A program made the position numbers and the translations under genes. From a virus, in IMG/VR virus record IMGVR_UViG_3300036651_000864, positions 1-30,729 of that record: 30,729 bases of DNA; one strand, given 5' to 3'. The notes under the pieces were generated by a model. It searched no databases, had not been told where the DNA came from, and saw only the letters and a list, made by a program, of their open reading frames with translations. Of the stretch, positions 18,057 through 30,729 are shown one piece after another. How positions within the stretch are numbered: position 1 is the first letter of the stretch; every line of letters begins with the position of its first letter.

Positions 18057-18084
18057 AGTATACTAGTAGTGCGCTTTTGGTCAA
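18057..18084 (-). promoter_or_regulatory. Leftward promoter with operator-like repeat
   Basis: On the minus strand TTGACC (18084-18079), 16 bp, and TATACT (18062-18057) form a strong housekeeping-type promoter whose start falls at or next to the ATG at 18048. On the plus strand 18049-18063 reads GTACCGATAGTATAC, which shares GTACCGAT-R-GTA with 18560-18571 beside the rightward promoter. The shared sequence suggests a common regulator. Confidence 0.65.
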
Positions 18085-18476
18085 CGACTAATCGGCTGGG
18101 TAGCCGGGTCGAACATCGCATGCACCTCGGCAATCAGCCGGGCGTCGTTGGCGGCAAGTTGTTGGTCATTCTTGGCCAGGCGGTCGTCGCTGCTATCACC
18201 ATGTATGGCAGCCAGGGCTGCGCTCATAGCGCCGAACTCGGTGGCGAAATTGGCGTACAGTGACGCCTCGATAATAAACAAATCGGCTGGGTTCGGGTGC
18301 AAACTTGGCACGAACAGGACGCCGATAATGTTGGCGAGCCAGACGAACGACATGCAGCGGTGAAACTGGTACTGAATTTTCGGGTCGACCTGCAAGGCGT
18401 GAATAACGTGGCGGCCGAGCACGCCGATGATTATGGCGATAACGGTGACAGTGTAGGCGAGCGAATTTCCGTGCAT
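18081..18476 (-). CDS. Multi-span membrane protein
   Basis: The start is placed at 18476 because the upstream ATGs lie within or before the predicted leftward promoter (18502-18530). The 131-residue product has spans at about 8-28 (YTVTVIAIIIGVLGRHVIHAL) and 43-60 (MSFVWLANIIGVLFVPSL), and a weaker third segment near 68-90, followed by a polar helix (RLAKNDQQLAANDARLIAEV). First gene of the leftward group. A membrane role such as superinfection exclusion is possible but untested. Confidence 0.6.
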   Translation of the reverse strand: MHGNSLAYTVTVIAIIIGVLGRHVIHALQVDPKIQYQFHRCMSFVWLANIIGVLFVPSLHPNPADLFIIEASLYANFATEFGAMSAALAAIHGDSSDDRLAKNDQQLAANDARLIAEVHAMFDPATQPISR

Positions 18477-18501
18477 GTTTGCTGTGGGTTTACTTGAGCC
18501 C

Positions 18502-18530
18502 ATCATAGCAGGCGCTAAGGGGGCTTGCAA
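18502..18530 (-). promoter_or_regulatory. Leftward promoter sharing its -35 box
   Basis: On the minus strand TTGCAA (18530-18525), 17 bp, then TATGAT (18507-18502) preceded by TGC. Transcription would begin near 18495, leaving about 20 bases before the ATG at 18476. The -35 hexamer is its own reverse complement and is also used by the rightward promoter. Confidence 0.55.
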
Positions 18531-18553
18531 TGTTAGTACACCTGTGGTATACT
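18525..18553 (+). promoter_or_regulatory. Rightward promoter with TG-extended -10
   Basis: TTGCAA (18525-18530), 17 bp, then TATACT (18548-18553) preceded by TGG. The start is near 18560, giving a leader of about 45 bases before the ATG at 18605. It would drive the operon 18605-20949 and probably read through the pentamer tract, since no terminator is seen before it. Confidence 0.65.
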
Positions 18554-18574
18554 GTCGGTGTACCGATGGTACGT
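18536..18574. promoter_or_regulatory. Two operator-like inverted repeats
   Basis: The first (18536-18552) is GTACACC-TGT-GGTATAC and covers the -10 box. The second has a perfect core GTACC-GAT-GGTAC (18560-18572) at the start site. Both follow a half-site like GTRTACC with a three-base centre, as expected for a dimeric repressor that blocks the rightward promoter. Confidence 0.5.
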
Positions 18575-18604
18575 TATTATTAAACTCATGAAAGGTGTAA
18601 AAAC

Positions 18605-18832
18605 ATGAGCAACCAACTATCAACTTACAATACTACTAGCACTGTGCGGAACAAGACGCTGCTCGTCGAGCACTGGAACGACTACGCTTCGTTTAGCTTG
18701 AACTCAAGCGACGAGGACGGCGAGTACTTACTTATTTTCACTAAAGAAGCCCTTGGCGACAAGCATTCCACTGTCATTAGCATTTCAGGCGACGACCTCG
18801 ACGCACTCAAGAAGCTTTTGGGGGACCGCTAA
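18605..18832 (+). CDS. Small acidic hypothetical protein
   Basis: This 75-residue protein is the first gene of the rightward operon, with AAAGGTG 8 bases upstream. The sequence (TLLVEHWNDYASFSLN, GEYLLIFTKEAL, ISISGDDLDALKKLLGD) looks like a small alternating beta/alpha fold. It is acidic. Early position makes anti-host or regulatory activity plausible, but nothing in the sequence shows it. Confidence 0.6.
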   Translation: MSNQLSTYNTTSTVRNKTLLVEHWNDYASFSLNSSDEDGEYLLIFTKEALGDKHSTVISISGDDLDALKKLLGDR

Positions 18833-20950: not shown

Positions 20951-21510
20951 TACGGCAGGTATCGCATGGCATGGCATTGCATGGCATGGCAAGGACAGGT
21001 TCGCCCAGGCTAGGTAATGTGAGGTCCGGCAGGTGCGACAAGGCAAGTTTACGCACGATGAGGCAAGCCCTGTTCGGGCGAGGCGAGATATAGGTTCGGT
21101 TCGGCAGGTAAGGTTCGGTTCGGCGGGGCGTGGCTAGGTTGCTTGAGGCTAGGTATGGCAGGTACGGCTAGGCAAGTTCTGACTAGGTAAGGCAGCGTTC
21201 GGCAGGGAAAGGTTCGGTAGGGTATGGCAGGTGAGGTAAGTCGAGTTCCGGCTAGATGTGTTGAGGCCAGCTGAGGCTTGGCGGGGTAAGGTCCGATATG
21301 GTACGGCAGGTAAGGCACGGTAACGGTTAGGCGAGGCGGGTTTCGGCCTGCTAAGGCATGCTCTGGTTCGGCCAGATTCGGCAGGTAAGGCAGCGTTTGG
21401 CTAGGTACGTCGTGGCAAGGCAGGTTGTGGTGCGCTTCGGCAGGTAAGGCTAGGCTAGTTGCGCTAAGGACTGGTGAGCTCGGATGGGGCGAGGCATGGC
21501 AGGCAACAAC
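20951..21510 (+). repeat. Degenerate GGYNN pentamer tract, about 560 bp, non-coding
   Basis: GG dinucleotides recur at five-base steps with only occasional one-base phase slips: for example 20983, 20988, 20993, 20998, then 21008, 21013, 21023, 21028. I count roughly 80 GG pairs, nearly all followed by C or T. The start is almost regular (GGCAT repeats) and the rest is diverged. The top strand is G-rich and C-poor. A five-base step does not fit codons, stops occur in the rightward frames, and no ribosome binding site is seen. Spaced (GGNNN)n is also the pattern of two-layer G-quadruplexes. Confidence 0.85.
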
Positions 21511-22009: not shown

Positions 22010-22181
22010 TAATGGGGTCAATCAGTTTCGTGTCGCAACAGCTGTGCGGCTCCATGAAAACATCCACTAACTAACAGGGGTGTTTACATCGGACACAAGC
22101 CATGCTAATGTATCAGAAGCGATACGGAACTGAGTGGCTCAAAACTCACCGATTTAAGCGCCCCGAGAGAGGCGCTTTTTT
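22010..22181 (+). ncRNA. Structured leader RNA or small RNA ending in a terminator
   Basis: Between the promoter and the initiator gene lie about 170 bases with successive hairpins: CGCA/TGCG (22033-22047), GTGT/ACAC (near 22080-22096), GTATC/GATAC (22109-22124), TGAGT/ACTCA (22132-22149) and the terminator at 22156-22181. The terminator T-run ends one base before the ATG at 22183. This arrangement suggests either transcription attenuation of the initiator gene or a separate small RNA. No known riboswitch consensus is recognised. Confidence 0.5.
22156..22181 (+). terminator. Intrinsic terminator abutting the initiator start codon
   Basis: AAGCGCC (22156-22162), an 8-base loop and GGCGCTT (22171-22177) form a 7-bp stem, and the RNA runs into six Ts (22176-22181). 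It leaves no room for a ribosome binding site before ATG 22183 unless the loop's GAGAG is used with the stem open. Confidence 0.75.
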
Positions 22182-22182
22182 C

Positions 22183-23040
22183 ATGAAAGGCTTTGGCATC
22201 TACGTCAAGAATGACCTGCTAGAACCAAAACATGTGGCTGCAATGGGTGAGGCTGTATGGCTGTACCTGTGGCTACTCGACAAAATGACATCGGTGAACG
22301 AGAACGGGGTAGGGCGCGTGCTCGGTGGCTCGGCAATCACCTACGAGCAAGCCAAGGCTGACCTCGGTATCCATCGCAACACTTATGTCAAATACGTGCG
22401 TCGACTGCGTGATGCAGGCTATATCCAAACGCTCCGTACTCCTTATGGCATGATTATCAGTGTTGTCAAGGCTCAAAAGCCGTTCAAACCAAGAAGCACA
22501 CGAACGCGTGCAACTAAGAAGTCGACGGATGAGATGCACACGAAACGGCACATCTCTAGTGATGCACACGAACATGTGCAACCAGATGCACACGAACATG
22601 TGCAACCAGATGCACACGATTGGGGCAGAGATGCACACGATTGGGGCAGAGATGCACACGAAACGGTACATGTAATTAAGACAATACAAGACAATACAAT
22701 AGACAATACAAGTATTACTAACGTAATAGACGCATCCGCGTCGAAGCGTTATGGAAAACCTGAAATAAACGAACTGTTTGATTTTTGGGCTACAATTTGC
22801 GGTTATAACATCGAATCACGTGTCACTGCAAATCGTCGTGCAGCAAGCTCATTGCTCAAAAAGCACGGCAAGGACAAACTCGAACAACTAATCCGAGGCG
22901 TCGGTATGGCTCACAGCGACCGATATGCGCCTCGGATTTCTGATTTCACCCAGCTACAGCAAAAGACCAACGAACTCGTAATGTGGGGTCGCAAGAAACA
23001 TGGGGGCGATGTCAACGCACCAAGGAGTTACAAAATATGA
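22183..23040 (+). CDS. Replication initiator candidate with winged helix
   Basis: The start is placed at 22183 (MKGFGIYVKNDLLEPKHV) because the longer frame from 22102 would read through the terminator hairpin. Residues 20-95 form a winged-helix domain: AITYEQAKADLGIHRNTYVKYVRRLRDAGYI is the helix-turn-helix and TPYGMIISV the wing. Residues 100-165 are a basic linker with DAHEHVQP and DAHDWGR repeats, encoded by the iterons. Residues 190-275 form a helical domain (INELFDFWATICGY, ASSLLKKHGKDKLEQLIRGV, RISDFTQLQQKTNELVMW) similar in outline to the C-terminal part of phage replisome organisers. It would bind its own internal origin and load a helicase. No catalytic site is seen. Confidence 0.7.
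   Translation: MKGFGIYVKNDLLEPKHVAAMGEAVWLYLWLLDKMTSVNENGVGRVLGGSAITYEQAKADLGIHRNTYVKYVRRLRDAGYIQTLRTPYGMIISVVKAQKPFKPRSTRTRATKKSTDEMHTKRHISSDAHEHVQPDAHEHVQPDAHDWGRDAHDWGRDAHETVHVIKTIQDNTIDNTSITNVIDASASKRYGKPEINELFDFWATICGYNIESRVTANRRAASSLLKKHGKDKLEQLIRGVGMAHSDRYAPRISDFTQLQQKTNELVMWGRKKHGGDVNAPRSYKI
22533..22711 (+). other. Putative replication origin: iterons plus AT-rich unwinding region
   Basis: GATGCACACGA occurs exactly six times, at 22533, 22561, 22585, 22609, 22630 and 22651, spaced 28, 24, 24, 21 and 21 bp. The first copy is read in a different frame from the other five, so the DNA rather than the peptide is conserved. Three copies of GACAATACAA (22680, 22690, 22702) follow in an AT-rich stretch reaching to about 22735. 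Iterons next to an easily melted segment inside the initiator gene is the lambda ori arrangement. Confidence 0.75.
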
Positions 23041-24356: not shown

Positions 24357-24965
24357 ATGGCAGCTCATAACGGCACCAACGACACACAAACAGTAGTCGC
24401 ACCGCAAAAAGGGGGCGTCAAACAATCGGAAATGAAGCGTCGTGATGGCCAGCTCGTCACTCCAAAGCAAGCAGCGTTTATCAAAGGGGTAGCAGCAGGG
24501 AAGTCCGGCACACAGGCTGCGCTCGACGCGTACAACACCACGAGCGCGGACACCGCCAAGGCCATCGCATCTGAGAACTTATCGAAACCCAACGTGAAAA
24601 TTGCACTCCAACAGGCGTTAGAACGTAGTGGATTAAGCATCGACCGCGTGGCAGAGGTCATCACCGACGCATCCAATGCCACCCGAATCGCATCCGGCCC
24701 ACGCGTCGCCATCGCACCAGACGGCACAGCCACCACCATACCGGGCCTAGTCGAAACCGACATACCCGACCACGGCACCAGGCTCAACGCCGCTCGGCTC
24801 GCCACACAGCTGATGGGCGCGTTCGACAAAGACGACGACGGCAGCGGCAAAGTCACGTTCAATTTCGGCGGAAACGCCAAGGTTTATCTCAAAAATGATA
24901 TACACACGGCCGACACGAAGCCGCAAGGACCTCCAAAAGACGCTGAAACACCCGAGGTCGCGTAA
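24357..24965 (+). CDS. terS: Terminase small subunit
   Basis: This 202-residue protein has GAGGGA before the ATG. Residues 34-85 show the Terminase_2-type DNA-binding motif: LVTPKQAAFIKGVAAGKSGTQAALDAYN, then TAKAIASENLSKPNVKIALQQALE. Small terminase binds the packaging start site and recruits the large subunit. A mid-length loop rich in Pro/Thr and a C-terminal acidic/Gly stretch (FDKDDDGSGKVTFNFGGN) follow. It heads the late operon and overlaps the next gene by TAATG. The family call is confident. Confidence 0.8.
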   Translation: MAAHNGTNDTQTVVAPQKGGVKQSEMKRRDGQLVTPKQAAFIKGVAAGKSGTQAALDAYNTTSADTAKAIASENLSKPNVKIALQQALERSGLSIDRVAEVITDASNATRIASGPRVAIAPDGTATTIPGLVETDIPDHGTRLNAARLATQLMGAFDKDDDGSGKVTFNFGGNAKVYLKNDIHTADTKPQGPPKDAETPEVA

Positions 24966-25498
24966 TGGCTACATCATTCACGACGTCAGACACCATGCAA
25001 ACCTACTTCGAGCAGTACGCCATGCACAAGTACGGGCTCACTAGTCTCAAGATATCTCAGCAGCCATCCATCAAGGGTTACGTTATCACCGCCAGCCGTA
25101 ACGGTGCCACCGTCGACGCCACAGTCTCAGACGCGCAGGTCGACGGTTTGCTCGGACCGGACCAGTCCGTCCAATACCTAATCGACAAAATGGCCCACGA
25201 ATTAGACCGTATAAGCCCGCGCAAAGGCAAAACCATATCGTTTACCAAGTACGCCCCACAAAGCCCGTCAGACGTCCTAGATTTGCGTCACAGAGCAATT
25301 GAGGGCATGGGCGACATCCGCACTTTGTACGAGCAACGCATGATGGACACGCCCGACCGTCCCCGCGTGCTCGTCCTTACCCTCCAACAACTCAAGGCAG
25401 CCGAGCAATCCCCCGAATGGCTAGGGCGCGTGATGCTCAACGAGGGCGACCACATTCCCGAAATCCACGGCATGAAAGTCGAGGTGCGGCGTGATTGA
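24965..25498 (+). CDS. Hypothetical protein in the packaging operon
   Basis: This 177-residue protein starts in a TAATG overlap with terS. It has alternating hydrophobic strands and charged helices (MQTYFEQYAMHKYGLTSLKI, SVQYLIDKMAHELDRI, RPRVLVLTLQQLKAAE) and a basic end. No family is recognised. The overlap with both neighbours suggests it is made with the terminase genes. Confidence 0.6.
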   Translation: MATSFTTSDTMQTYFEQYAMHKYGLTSLKISQQPSIKGYVITASRNGATVDATVSDAQVDGLLGPDQSVQYLIDKMAHELDRISPRKGKTISFTKYAPQSPSDVLDLRHRAIEGMGDIRTLYEQRMMDTPDRPRVLVLTLQQLKAAEQSPEWLGRVMLNEGDHIPEIHGMKVEVRRD

Positions 25499-25916
25499 CC
25501 CGAGCATCAAGTGGAAAGCCAACAGGCGGCTCATCACACCCGTCGACATCATCCACTCGCGTTTATCCAAGAAGCACTCAGTCGGCAAGGTCCTCGCGGT
25601 CGACTTCGACGGCGTCATCCACGACCACAAGCGACCGATTGACGGCAAGCGCATGGGCAAGCCACTCCCCGGCGCCGAGCAATCCGTCAACGACCTGTAC
25701 AACCAGGGCTACACCATCATCATTCACTCGCAGCGCGCCAACAGCGAGAGCGGCAAGCAGTCAATCGTCGACTGGCTCGACCACTACGGCATCTCGTACA
25801 GCGCCGTCACCGCACTCAAACCACCAGCCGACTTCTACATCGACGACAAAGCCGTCACGCACAAAGACTGGCCGACGACGCTCATGCACATTGGCTACGT
25901 GCCCGAGGTCAAGTGA
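25491..25916 (+). CDS. HAD-like phosphatase
   Basis: The start is GTG 25491, overlapping the previous stop by 8 bp. The 141-residue product carries the HAD motifs in order: VLAVDFDGVIHD (nucleophile Asp38 and Asp40), IIIHSQRAN (Ser80), a Lys near 110 and ADFYIDDKAV (Asp118-Asp119). There is no large cap domain, so it may act on nucleotides or DNA/protein ends. HAD proteins of this short type occur in phages near packaging or nucleotide genes; the substrate cannot be read from the sequence. Confidence 0.75.
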   Translation: MIDPSIKWKANRRLITPVDIIHSRLSKKHSVGKVLAVDFDGVIHDHKRPIDGKRMGKPLPGAEQSVNDLYNQGYTIIIHSQRANSESGKQSIVDWLDHYGISYSAVTALKPPADFYIDDKAVTHKDWPTTLMHIGYVPEVK

Positions 25917-26146
25917 TGGCAGACGCACCCAAAGGCCAACCACTCTGCGCCGGTTGCCTAGAGCCCATCGAAACACCCGACGTCATCCAACAATTCAGCC
26001 TAGAGAATCGCTACAAGCGCGACTACGCCAACACACACTTGGGTACCATCCACGAGCACGGGCTTGAGCCGCGCGTCCTACTCTGCAAGAACTGCCTCGC
26101 CAAGCTCGAAGCCATAAAAGCCAAGGACCACGCCCATGGCAAATAA
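25916..26146 (+). CDS. Zinc-ribbon protein
   Basis: The ATG at 25916 overlaps the previous stop (TGATG), and GAGG lies upstream. The 76-residue product has CAGC at about residue 11 and CKNC at about 57, with a polar His-containing region between, fitting a zinc ribbon. Function is unknown. Confidence 0.6.
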   Translation: MADAPKGQPLCAGCLEPIETPDVIQQFSLENRYKRDYANTHLGTIHEHGLEPRVLLCKNCLAKLEAIKAKDHAHGK

Positions 26147-26453
26147 CCGCATGATGTTGGTGTGCAACACTTGCTACCCTACCGACGAGGACATCTATGC
26201 CAACCATGGCAAAAGCTGGGCTGAACAACGGCCCGACTTCATTAGTGTCGGCAAGTGGTATCCCGTCGGCAGCTACCGCACACACACCGATTTAGAGCTT
26301 GGAAACGCCATCAACGAGTACCTCGACCGACACTCCCATGAACTAGACGACCCGAAGCTGAATGAGAACCCGGTGCGGCTGACGTATGAAACGTGGGTCA
26401 TCGACCAACCCGCCATAACAGCATGGAAGTACGAACCAAATGCCAGTGATTGA
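26136..26453 (+). CDS. Hypothetical protein before the large terminase
   Basis: This 105-residue protein starts at an ATG within the previous gene's end, with AAGGA upstream. It begins MANNRMMLVCNTCYPTDEDIY, where CNTC may be half of a metal site, and is acidic with several Trp/Tyr (SWAEQRPDFISVGKWYPV). It overlaps the terminase ATPase gene by 14 bp. No family is recognised. Confidence 0.55.
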   Translation: MANNRMMLVCNTCYPTDEDIYANHGKSWAEQRPDFISVGKWYPVGSYRTHTDLELGNAINEYLDRHSHELDDPKLNENPVRLTYETWVIDQPAITAWKYEPNASD

Positions 26454-27447
26454 CTACAAAGGTTTCGCCGAGGCGCATTTCTACATCAAGAACAAACACG
26501 GCGTCTTAGAGCCGTTCAAGTTCAACGACGTGCAGCGCGACTACTACGACGCCTTACAAGCCGACTATCCCGACATGCAGGGCATCCGCGAGAACATCCT
26601 CAAAGGGCGGCAGTTCGGCCTGAGTAGCGAGATAACCGCCATCTTCGCGACCGACCTCATCATGTCCGAAATCGGCGAAATCCCCATCATCGACAGCGAC
26701 GTCTACTCACACAAAGACGAAGAGACTGCCGCACACATCGAACGGTTCAACCTGTTCGTAAACAGCTACCTGTTCGCCACACAAGGCGGCTCCGCACTCG
26801 ACATCGAGGATAACCGCGACGCGCTGCTCATGATGCGCAAACAGTTCTTTCAGTCCGATACTGGTGGCGACCTCATCACGCGCCGACGCCGGGCGCAATA
26901 CCACTGCCAAACCGCCAGCGCCAAAGTCTCCGGCCGTGGTGGTACCAAGCAGAACATTCACTGGTCCGAGGTGGCGTTCTACCCGAACACCGAAATCATG
27001 AACGCCAAGAAGCTCGTGGTCGGTGCCGAGAAGCAGGTGCCGCAGAACTACGGCAAGATATTCCGCGAAACAACTGGCAACCTGGCAGCTGACTACTTCG
27101 CCGAAGAGTACAAAGCCGGTAAGGACGGCATCAGCCTGTTCAAGAGCCGCTTCATCGCCTGGTACACGTACAAGGATTATCGCGCGCCCGCGCCCGAGGA
27201 CTGGAACGCCCCAGCCTACTACGCCGCACTGCTCGAAACCCGGCAAGCCGACCGCGACCAATGCTACTGGCACTATCGCCAGACCAAAGGCTTGCAGGAC
27301 AAAGAAGAGCTGCGCGAGTACCCGACCTACGACACCGAGGCGTTCCTGTACGGCGGCAAACCGTTTTTCAATGCCGAGGCCCTGATATTCCACACCAACC
27401 GCATCAAGCAACCGATAAGTGAAGCGATGTATGTCCAAGCGCTTTGA
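26440..27447 (+). CDS. terL: Terminase large subunit, ATPase part (divided gene)
   Basis: This 335-residue protein holds the motor half of the large terminase. The adenine-binding motif is FNDVQRDY (28-35). The Walker A-like loop is KGRQFGLSSE (55-64). NIHWSEVAFYPNTE (172-185) holds the Walker B/catalytic Glu analogue, and FRETTGNLAADYF (208-220) is the coupling-type motif. It ends YPTYDTEAFLYGGKPFFNAEAL...PISEAMYVQAL, the place where intact large terminases lead into their nuclease domain. That domain is encoded separately at 27658-28290, and the two parts together (545 residues) equal a normal subunit. Confidence 0.8.
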   Translation: MPVIDYKGFAEAHFYIKNKHGVLEPFKFNDVQRDYYDALQADYPDMQGIRENILKGRQFGLSSEITAIFATDLIMSEIGEIPIIDSDVYSHKDEETAAHIERFNLFVNSYLFATQGGSALDIEDNRDALLMMRKQFFQSDTGGDLITRRRRAQYHCQTASAKVSGRGGTKQNIHWSEVAFYPNTEIMNAKKLVVGAEKQVPQNYGKIFRETTGNLAADYFAEEYKAGKDGISLFKSRFIAWYTYKDYRAPAPEDWNAPAYYAALLETRQADRDQCYWHYRQTKGLQDKEELREYPTYDTEAFLYGGKPFFNAEALIFHTNRIKQPISEAMYVQAL

Positions 27448-27658
27448 GTGCATCCGTAAGACGCAGCAGTTGCCCAATGGCCCAGTCATTGACGGCCATG
27501 CGTATAAACCAGTCGTGGGCATAAACGACATCGACACCGGGCGCACATACTCGGTGATGCAATGCGTGAGGTGCGACAAACTCAGCGTAGGTTTTTACGA
27601 GGGGTACGAACCAGTGACCGACTCGATAGGCCCAATTGTCAACGTGGGGGGCGCCTGA
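27431..27658 (+). CDS. Small CxxC protein lying between the two terminase parts
   Basis: The ATG at 27431 overlaps the ATPase gene by 17 bp and its stop overlaps the nuclease gene (TGATG). The 75-residue product contains ECIRKTQQLPNGPVIDGHAYKPV and MQCVRCDKLSVGF, with one CxxC pair plus a distal Cys and His. It resembles no terminase segment, so it looks like an inserted gene. No endonuclease or intein motif is visible. Confidence 0.6.
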   Translation: MSKRFECIRKTQQLPNGPVIDGHAYKPVVGINDIDTGRTYSVMQCVRCDKLSVGFYEGYEPVTDSIGPIVNVGGA

Positions 27659-28290
27659 TGTTCCGCTTATACCGCCCCATCCAACCCGGCGAGTTTTTCG
27701 TATGCTTCGGCGACACCGCGCAGGGCGGCATCGACAAGAACTACGTGCAGTTCATGAGCCAGACCCAGCTCGACATCCCGCTCGTCCTGGCGATGCACGG
27801 CACCGCTGCCGAGGCCACGCCGTTCCTCATCCAAGCGCTGCGCTACATCCGCCAGAAAACCGGCATCCCGCCAACCGTCGCACTGGAACGGCAGAACGGT
27901 GGCGCCAGTGCCATGCACGACCTGATGATGGCCAACAGCAGCGACGAGTACACCATCTACATCGCCAAGACCGAGGGTGGCGTGATGGGCGAGGACCAGA
28001 CCAAGAAGCTCGGTTGGGACACGAACGCCATTAGCAGACCGCAGATGCTCGGCCAGTGGCTCACCGCGTTCAACTCGCGCCAGGTCAAAATCTACGACCG
28101 CGAAACCATCGAGCAGCACAGCACGTTCATCGTCAACAAGAACGGCAAACCCGAAGCCGCCCCCAACACCCACGACGACGCCGTCATGAGCTGCGCCGGT
28201 GTCTGGCAGATGTATCAGACCGAGCAGCCACCATCGACCGAGCCACAGGAATACACCAGCGGCAACTTTGCGAGTGCGTGGCTATCATGA
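27658..28290 (+). CDS. terL: Terminase large subunit, nuclease part (divided gene)
   Basis: The ATG at 27658 lies 8 bases after a GGGGGG site in a TGATG overlap. The 210-residue product begins LYRPIQPGEFFVCFGDTAQGG, exactly how the RNase H-fold nuclease domain of large terminases starts. Asp19, Glu77 (in VALERQNGG) and Asp173-Asp174 (in THDDAVMS) are the likely metal ligands. It would cut concatemers at packaging start and end. Its function probably needs association with the ATPase part encoded upstream. Confidence 0.8.
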   Translation: MFRLYRPIQPGEFFVCFGDTAQGGIDKNYVQFMSQTQLDIPLVLAMHGTAAEATPFLIQALRYIRQKTGIPPTVALERQNGGASAMHDLMMANSSDEYTIYIAKTEGGVMGEDQTKKLGWDTNAISRPQMLGQWLTAFNSRQVKIYDRETIEQHSTFIVNKNGKPEAAPNTHDDAVMSCAGVWQMYQTEQPPSTEPQEYTSGNFASAWLS

Positions 28291-28313
28291 AACTAAACGA
28301 AAGGACCGCATGA
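28287..28313 (+). CDS. Eight-codon bridging reading frame
   Basis: ATG AAA CTA AAC GAA AGG ACC GCA TGA starts within the stop of the nuclease gene and ends within the start of the next gene (ATGA at both ends). It also contains the AAAGGA site for the next gene. A role as a reinitiation bridge is more likely than a functional peptide. Confidence 0.35.
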   Translation: MKLNERTA

Positions 28314-28606
28314 AATCCCAAGATTGGGCCAATCCCGACGAAACCCGCAAGCACATCATCGACAGCCTGGGCGCGTTGTGCAACGACCTCGGCTTGAGTT
28401 ACGCCTACACCGAAACGCATTTCCGCATCACCCTACCAAGCGTGCAGGAAATCAAGTTCTGGACAGCTACCAAGAAGCGCCGCGTGTTCAACTGGGACGC
28501 CATACCCAGCAGCGGCGAAGTCGAGGGCCTGCCGGACGAGTTACCACCAACCACAACGCCACTTGACGAGGGCGAGAAGCCAGAGGACAAAGATGCAGAG
28601 CGATAA
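28310..28606 (+). CDS. Hypothetical 98-residue protein
   Basis: AAAGGA lies 5 bases before the ATG. The product starts MKSQDWANPDETRKHIIDSLGALCNDLG and has a compact beta part (FRITLPSVQEIKFWTATKKRRVFNW) and an acidic Pro-rich tail (PDELPPTTTPLDEGEKPEDKD). It lies in the packaging operon between terminase and portal. No family is recognised. Confidence 0.6.
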   Translation: MKSQDWANPDETRKHIIDSLGALCNDLGLSYAYTETHFRITLPSVQEIKFWTATKKRRVFNWDAIPSSGEVEGLPDELPPTTTPLDEGEKPEDKDAER

Positions 28607-28874
28607 AACAGTTTCAGACGTATTGCACTACCTGTATGCCAACGGCCAAAAAGAGCTGGCCGAGGTTGTGCTCGAAGAGTACCGCACTAAGCGCCAAACG
28701 TTCACGCCAATGTCGCCACAGGTCATTCATGTACCTACGCCGCCTACGCCCTGTACACGTCCGCACACATCACCGCTATTCCCAGGCGTCATTATGGGCG
28801 GCGGCATTGGTAATGGTATCGGCACCCCACTAAAAGGATTAAACGGGACCATGCAGCTATGCGCGACAAACTAA
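28593..28874 (+). CDS. Hypothetical 93-residue protein
   Basis: The ATG at 28593 has GAGGAC upstream and overlaps the preceding gene by 14 bp. The N-terminal third is helical (VSDVLHYLYANGQKELAEVVLEEY), followed by a Pro/Thr/His-rich segment and a Gly-rich hydrophobic stretch (FPGVIMGGGIGNGIGTPL). A short surface-exposed or membrane-interacting tail is possible. No family is recognised. Confidence 0.55.
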   Translation: MQSDKTVSDVLHYLYANGQKELAEVVLEEYRTKRQTFTPMSPQVIHVPTPPTPCTRPHTSPLFPGVIMGGGIGNGIGTPLKGLNGTMQLCATN

Positions 28875-29603: not shown

Positions 29604-30729
29604 GTGGCTTCATCGACATCGGCAACAGCGCCGACCAAAAAACTAGCAAAGACTGCCGAGGATAACCCGGCTGGCGACCTGCCAGCAACGACCTCGTCCG
29701 ACAAGACCGACAAAGCTAAAAACCCGTTCCTGACATCCGACCAAGCGCGGGATGCCTACGAGGACGCCTGGAAATGGTACCGCGTCTACATGAACCCGCT
29801 CGACGAGCTCGAACGTATCGCCCGCAACCGGCCCAGCCCGACCATCGACCCGAGCCTGCCGCGCATCACGGACGGCACCACGGCTGGCATTATCCTGGAA
29901 ACACCCAAGCGCGTGTTCGAGCAAGTCCCAACCGGCCACGTCATTAACAAGGATGCCCCCGAACTCGCCCCGATTGCTGACACTATCCTGCGCGAAAAGC
30001 TCTTATTCCTGTACAACCGCCAGGGCAACCTGCTCCAAAAGACCTGGAACATGATAGGCAAGTCGATGACCTACGGCGTAGCCAGCTCGTACACCTTTTT
30101 CACGAGCACCAACGGCAAAATGCACACCGATTTCATCCTGCCCTATGCCAAAGACAGCTTCGCCGAAAAGGGCAAAGTCTATCAGCCCGACAGCAACTTC
30201 CGCTTCCTGCGCAGCTGGTACACCAAGCGTGACATCAAGGCCATAATCGACCGCGAACAGCGCCTGGAAAAGACCCTCAAGGGCTACAAGACGCCCTACG
30301 ACCTGCCAAAGATGGCCGACTGGATGGAATCAGGCCCGCAACAGAAGCCCGTATACCTCATGACCCCGGCCGAAAAGGAAAAAGGCGGCGATACCGGCGG
30401 TTACGAGATGATTCACGTCTTTCAAAAGGGCGTCGGCGCCAATTTCTTCGGTTTCGCGCCCCGATTCGCCGAGGGACAGAACTTATACGTCAAACCCAAC
30501 CCCGACCCGCGCGGTGCAATGCCTATAGATGACCTGTATTGCAACATCGACCTGTCAAACCCGATGGGACGCGGCCAGGTTGAGCTTTGCGGCGGCTTGC
30601 AGAACCTGATGGACCAGCAAATGCAGCTGTACCAGTTCATGAGCACCATCATGCAAGGCCCACCGCTCCAAACTTGGGGCAACGTCAACAAAGCCACGCT
30701 GAAATACCGCCCGAATGCCATCTGGGACA
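29604..30729 (+). CDS. Portal protein (3' partial)
   Basis: The frame opens at GTG 29604, eight bases after AAGGGG, and stays open to the right edge (375 codons). After a Thr/Ser/Lys-rich leader, DAYEDAWKWYRVYMNPLDELERIARNR and PTIDPSLPRITDGTTAG lead into an alternating helical core (LFLYNRQGNLLQKTWNMIGKSMTYGVASSYTFF). The segment NIDLSNPMGRGQVELCGGLQNLMDQQMQLYQFMS is the stem-helix type typical of portals. It would form the 12-subunit ring through which DNA is packaged. Position two operons after terminase supports this. The portal assignment is from pattern and context. Confidence 0.7.
   Translation, partial: MASSTSATAPTKKLAKTAEDNPAGDLPATTSSDKTDKAKNPFLTSDQARDAYEDAWKWYRVYMNPLDELERIARNRPSPTIDPSLPRITDGTTAGIILETPKRVFEQVPTGHVINKDAPELAPIADTILREKLLFLYNRQGNLLQKTWNMIGKSMTYGVASSYTFFTSTNGKMHTDFILPYAKDSFAEKGKVYQPDSNFRFLRSWYTKRDIKAIIDREQRLEKTLKGYKTPYDLPKMADWMESGPQQKPVYLMTPAEKEKGGDTGGYEMIHVFQKGVGANFFGFAPRFAEGQNLYVKPNPDPRGAMPIDDLYCNIDLSNPMGRGQVELCGGLQNLMDQQMQLYQFMSTIMQGPPLQTWGNVNKATLKYRPNAIWD

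Follow-up and report, generated by a model that had tools for sequence, protein, structure and literature searches.

What becomes of a viral packaging motor when its ATPase and its nuclease are no longer made as one protein? Such motors are usually explained by force transmitted through a covalent hinge between the two domains, and a large and apparently old clade of phages in which these domains are separate, and have once been re-fused, would offer a natural test of the need for the covalent link. The question is raised by the viral record IMGVR_UViG_3300036651_000864, all 30,729 nt of which were analysed (hereafter the window) and in which a large terminase appears to be divided between two genes, with a small third gene lodged between them. 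At issue are the identity of the two parts, the origin of their separation and the role of the gene that lies at the junction.

Three open reading frames on the plus strand were confirmed at this locus. The first (26440-27447, ending in TGA) encodes the 335-residue ATPase half of the large terminase, the second (27431-27658) a protein of 75 residues, P0008, with cysteines at positions 7, 45 and 48, and the third (27658-28290) the 210-residue nuclease half. As originally predicted, the CxxC gene is complete and overlaps both of its neighbours, sharing 17 nt with the end of the ATPase gene (27431-27447) and a single nucleotide, within the sequence TGATG, with the start of the nuclease gene. Each half also has a separate start. 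That of the nuclease has a good ribosome binding site, with GGGGGG upstream and the best anti-Shine-Dalgarno duplex energy among the window starts tested (-9.3 kcal/mol), and the nuclease frame extended further upstream does not have a coding-like codon usage in the window. The codon usage of P0008 is coding-like, scoring 0.38 bits per codon, a value matched by none of 188 off-frame stretches of equal length; among in-frame stretches this score is low, with 15 of 94 scoring as low. A terminase small subunit gene lies upstream of the ATPase gene (24357-24965, plus strand; Pfam Terminase_2, E 1.2e-7; phrog_51, E 1.3e-15), and a candidate portal gene at 29604-30728 gave no significant family match in Pfam and PHROG searches. 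Elsewhere in the window, the minus-strand translation of 21049-21318 is repetitive (PYLPYHIGPYP-like) and possibly reflects a non-coding repeat, and a 312-residue ORF at 22102-23040 contains the internal peptide repeats DAHEHVQP and DAHDWGR.

Profile, fold and catalytic-residue evidence agrees in identifying the halves as the two domains of a large terminase, ATPase and nuclease. A profile of the split-family ATPases matched a single-chain terminase (MW202692, locus L020) with an E value of 7e-57, and the ATPase motifs KGRQFGLSS, IHWSEVAF and RETTGN align with KARQMGLST, HGSEVAFW and LESTANG of that protein. The first of these contains a Walker A-like element, KGRQFGLS (residues 55-62; 26602-26625, plus strand), opposite KARQMGLS of L020; the second is the Walker B region (IHWSE-AF, opposite HGSE-AF), whose catalytic glutamate E177 (26968-26970, plus strand) is invariant in the ATPase alignment. 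The structural model of this half is weak (pLDDT 63), and a second look at its fold gave HK97 TerL and the T4 gp17 ATPase as best matches (Z 7.5-7.1). Searching the PDB with a profile of the aligned ATPases produced no meaningful match. Alignment, profile and weak-model fold together point to the N-terminal ASCE ATPase of a large terminase, with its Walker A, Walker B and coupling motifs. For the nuclease half, the AlphaFold2 model (pLDDT 86) had T4 gp17 as its top Foldseek match (3cpe, E 4.5e-8), with the RB49 gp17 nuclease (3c6h, E 6e-8) and the G20c and P74-26 nucleases also among the structure matches, and the protein matched the terminase family phrog_24361 (E 1.7e-13). Residues D19 (27712-27714), E77 (27886-27888) and D173-D174 of an HDD motif (28174-28179), all on the plus strand, occupy invariant columns of the nuclease alignment and form the acidic triad of a C-terminal RNase-H-fold nuclease.

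Alignment with two distant single-chain terminases, L020 and L023, shows the position of the cut. The last residues of the ATPase half lie a little beyond the EAFL-SG-F region, and the first of the nuclease half just ahead of a GE motif, itself followed by the first catalytic aspartate; exactly at this point the single-chain proteins carry approximately 34-43 additional residues. This indicates that the split falls at the domain linker, in agreement with the original prediction, and that the two-gene form has dispensed with most of that linker.

We then considered how far this arrangement extends beyond the window. Related loci were gathered by single-protein and alignment scans of viral contigs and by one scan of bacterial genomes. 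Removal of identical nuclease sequences, with near-identical ones counted separately, left 84 rows, namely 81 split loci, one fused ingroup member (L091) and the two single-chain outgroups. ATPase and nuclease are separate genes in all 81 split loci, which include six contigs from Saccharibacteria genomes, and the two domains share one polypeptide within the ingroup only in L091. Catalytic residues are invariant in both halves across these relatives. Chance is excluded as the source of the arrangement because both halves are conserved in about 80 related loci. Where no insert is present (61 split loci), the halves overlap by 1-47 nt in 58 cases, most commonly by 17, 8 or 4 nt, with the qualification that start codons were assigned automatically and individual values may be off. 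Shine-Dalgarno-like matches of at least 5 nt precede 33% of nuclease starts versus 3% of control ATGs within the same ATPase genes, and the duplex energies of the two sets differ (Mann-Whitney p 1.6e-7). Synonymous divergence was saturated or not computable for the window versus L002 and for L137 versus L138, so that no dN/dS ratio was obtained for these pairs.

The Saccharibacteria contigs provide information on hosts. Away from the terminase, CAMVNH010000001 encodes UDG, thymidylate kinase, anaerobic ribonucleotide reductase and a pseudouridine synthase (Pfam), and two further contigs, read by eye, carry UvrB, GatA/GatB and EF-G in one case and SecA, SerRS and HisRS in the other; a fourth, the last of those inspected beyond the terminase, had no diagnostic genes. 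At least three of the six contigs thus lie in bacterial chromosomes. The nuclease is present in 4 of 392 genomes of the class of G001 (Saccharibacteria), and no host for the second half of the clade was found among 380 genomes of the phylum of G001. Phages of Saccharibacteria are reported to use the standard code (PMC10746230), which is consistent with reading frames called in table 11. One genome of this phylum (G484, locus L157) encodes a distant single-chain terminase of the wider family (516 residues) adjoining a portal-like ORF. Neither half was matched by Pfam or NCBIfam, and profile-based terminase finding can consequently miss phages of these bacteria.

A tree of the concatenated halves contains two large groups of split loci. 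The sole single-chain terminase within the split clade, at L091:2818-4407 (529 residues), is sister to the split locus L007 (SH-aLRT 100), and a topology holding all split loci together without L091 was rejected (lnL difference 94, AU p 0.0002). In the L091 protein the long linker seen in distant single-chain terminases is missing, and the old nuclease methionine is retained. These sequences argue strongly for one ancient split and a later re-fusion in L091 as the simplest history, which depends on a root placed by long-branch outgroups, leaving some room for multiple parallel splits, and on a single contig for L091. The nesting of this fusion within the split clade suggests that the halves can act as one unit, and is indirect evidence that both belong to one machine.

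That the gene between the halves had itself split the terminase is contradicted by the relatives, which are split without any insert; the insert therefore came later than the split. No gene separates the halves in the nearest relatives (L002, L009 and L003), and the ATG of P0008, 17 nt before the ATPase stop, occupies the position at which the nuclease starts in most close relatives and which is the commonest such position overall. It thus appears that the gene took over the former nuclease start and that a new start for the nuclease lies at the end of the gene. Gaps of more than 60 nt separate the halves in 20 loci, and 18 of these, the window included, have junction ORFs, which in most cases cover the gap and overlap slightly at either end. 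Their products include an HNH endonuclease (L057), a NinG-like nuclease (L096), three methyltransferases, a nucleotidyltransferase, a HAD protein and several small unknown proteins; they are mostly unrelated among the loci, with only two related pairs detected by blastp. The junction methylase of L061 has homologues 3' of the nuclease in L069 and 5' of the ATPase in L039. As far as can be judged from sequence, this diversity is what would be expected of passengers at an ordinary border between genes, and not of a conserved bridge. Within the window, a HAD-phosphatase-like gene upstream of the ATPase (25491-25916; phrog_1238) resembles the HAD protein of the L068 junction, and a 180-residue protein encoded on the minus strand (18081-18623) is 32.5% identical over 80 residues to the 121-residue junction protein of L042.

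Since the corresponding junctions of relatives are either empty or occupied by quite dissimilar genes, P0008 is itself most likely a passenger, one of many genes that would have settled at this and nearby gene borders. Searches of viral contigs and phage records for its relatives returned only the identical contig described below and one chance match. Of the original interpretation, which is supported in part, the suggestion of a selfish insertion suits only a few other loci, such as those with the HNH and NinG-like nucleases; the insert in the window shows no mobility function. Alternatively, the CxxC protein could function as a third subunit of the motor, bridging the two halves or regulating them. 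Its coding-like codon usage and a position translationally coupled to both neighbours through the 17-nt and 1-nt overlaps would be expected of such a subunit, but the nearest relatives manage with no gene there, other loci have enzymes or unrelated small genes in its place, and P0008 is without a homologue even in the other split phages. We consider this reading, and with it the bridge originally envisaged, unlikely. A broader version, in which the motor of the whole clade is a multi-subunit machine with exchangeable ATPase and nuclease/translocation subunits, and in which the CxxC protein was recruited here to replace the lost hinge, strikes us as quite improbable.

The split could alternatively be only apparent, if a single chain were made from both halves by programmed frameshifting. 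Of the 58 overlapping junctions, 45 place the nuclease in frame +1 relative to the ATPase, and the ATPase gene of the window ends in CTT TGA (27442-27447), which resembles the prfB +1 frameshift site. However, the ATPase-frame stop often coincides with conserved Y/F-R codons at the N-terminus of the nuclease (TAT AGG), which can account for the preferred frame, and the remaining 13 overlapping junctions have the nuclease in the +2 frame; such a difference between loci speaks against a conserved frameshift. Moreover, a +1 shift in the window would fuse the ATPase only to the CxxC protein and not to the nuclease, complete genes intervene in 18 loci including this one, the last codons and stops differ between loci, and nuclease starts have Shine-Dalgarno-like sites of their own. 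Frameshifting is thus very unlikely. A self-splicing intron or intein was also rejected: no Rfam intron was found in 26000-28800 (one chance match fell below the gathering score), both halves are bounded by start and stop codons of their own, and P0008 has no endonuclease domain in Pfam and PHROG searches. An artefact of assembly or sequencing, or gene decay, has the metagenomic nature of the data as its only argument and a negligible probability. A second IMG/VR contig is 100% identical across 9,290 nt including the junction (possibly from the same sample), and the split recurs, with invariant catalytic residues, at about 80 loci across many samples as well as on contigs of bacterial chromosomes; a sequencing frameshift had likewise been set aside in the original prediction.

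We therefore return to the reading that is, in our judgement, very probably correct, namely a two-polypeptide terminase that arose by one ancient linker fission, is made by coupled translation, works as a non-covalent motor and acquired P0008 as a later passenger. The window would then encode its ATPase and its RNase-H-fold nuclease as independent proteins, the products of a single fission of the interdomain linker in the ancestor of a phage clade to which prophages of Saccharibacteria belong. Translation of the nuclease would normally begin at its own start within the last ATPase codons, through an internal Shine-Dalgarno sequence and termination-reinitiation, and the two proteins would assemble non-covalently on the portal into a working motor. 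In the window, the 75-residue CxxC gene would have been added later at the junction, where it occupies the old nuclease start, and the nuclease now starts at the TGATG at the end of this small gene. Separate ATPase and nuclease proteins could also provide motor components for mixing in vitro.

Comparison with known systems places this arrangement in context. The large terminases of T4, RB49 (gp17) and HK97 share the nuclease fold (3cpe, at the E value given above) and the ATPase fold (Z 7.5 for HK97 and 7.3 for T4) but, unlike those of the window, are single chains. The interdomain hinge of T4 gp17 is reported to be essential for translocation, while its separated domains keep their activities (PMC9958956); a split motor would hence need compensation, a non-covalent solution to the loss of the hinge. 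The terminases of Podoviridae sp. ctuNt529 (MW202692) and Vibrio phage 252E42.2 are distant homologues over both domains and differ in being single chains of about 560-640 residues with the extra linker of about 34-43 residues. Campylobacter phage CP220 has a terminase with a distantly related nuclease domain and a gene that is also interrupted, but here one ORF contains an annotated intein and the chain would be restored by protein splicing. The closest parallel is provided by the cluster AY Arthrobacter phages, for which a split terminase has already been reported (PMC11920828). BillyTP (PP978841) of this cluster resembles the window in having ATPase and nuclease in two consecutive genes, which overlap by 17 nt, the commonest overlap in the present clade, and differs in having no gene between them. 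Neither the ATPase nor the nuclease of BillyTP was matched significantly by the split-family profiles, and the BillyTP nuclease matches 1,842 phage records, mostly from actinophages and mostly annotated as one terminase; the two fissions are for these reasons probably independent. In the literature covered, mostly papers available without subscription, we found no split terminase other than that of the AY phages and no report of a gene lodged between terminase halves. The two-gene large terminase described here is apparently independent, old and widespread. While the split itself is known from the AY phages, what appears to be new is a separate clade of two-gene terminases with an internal border that accepts passenger genes.
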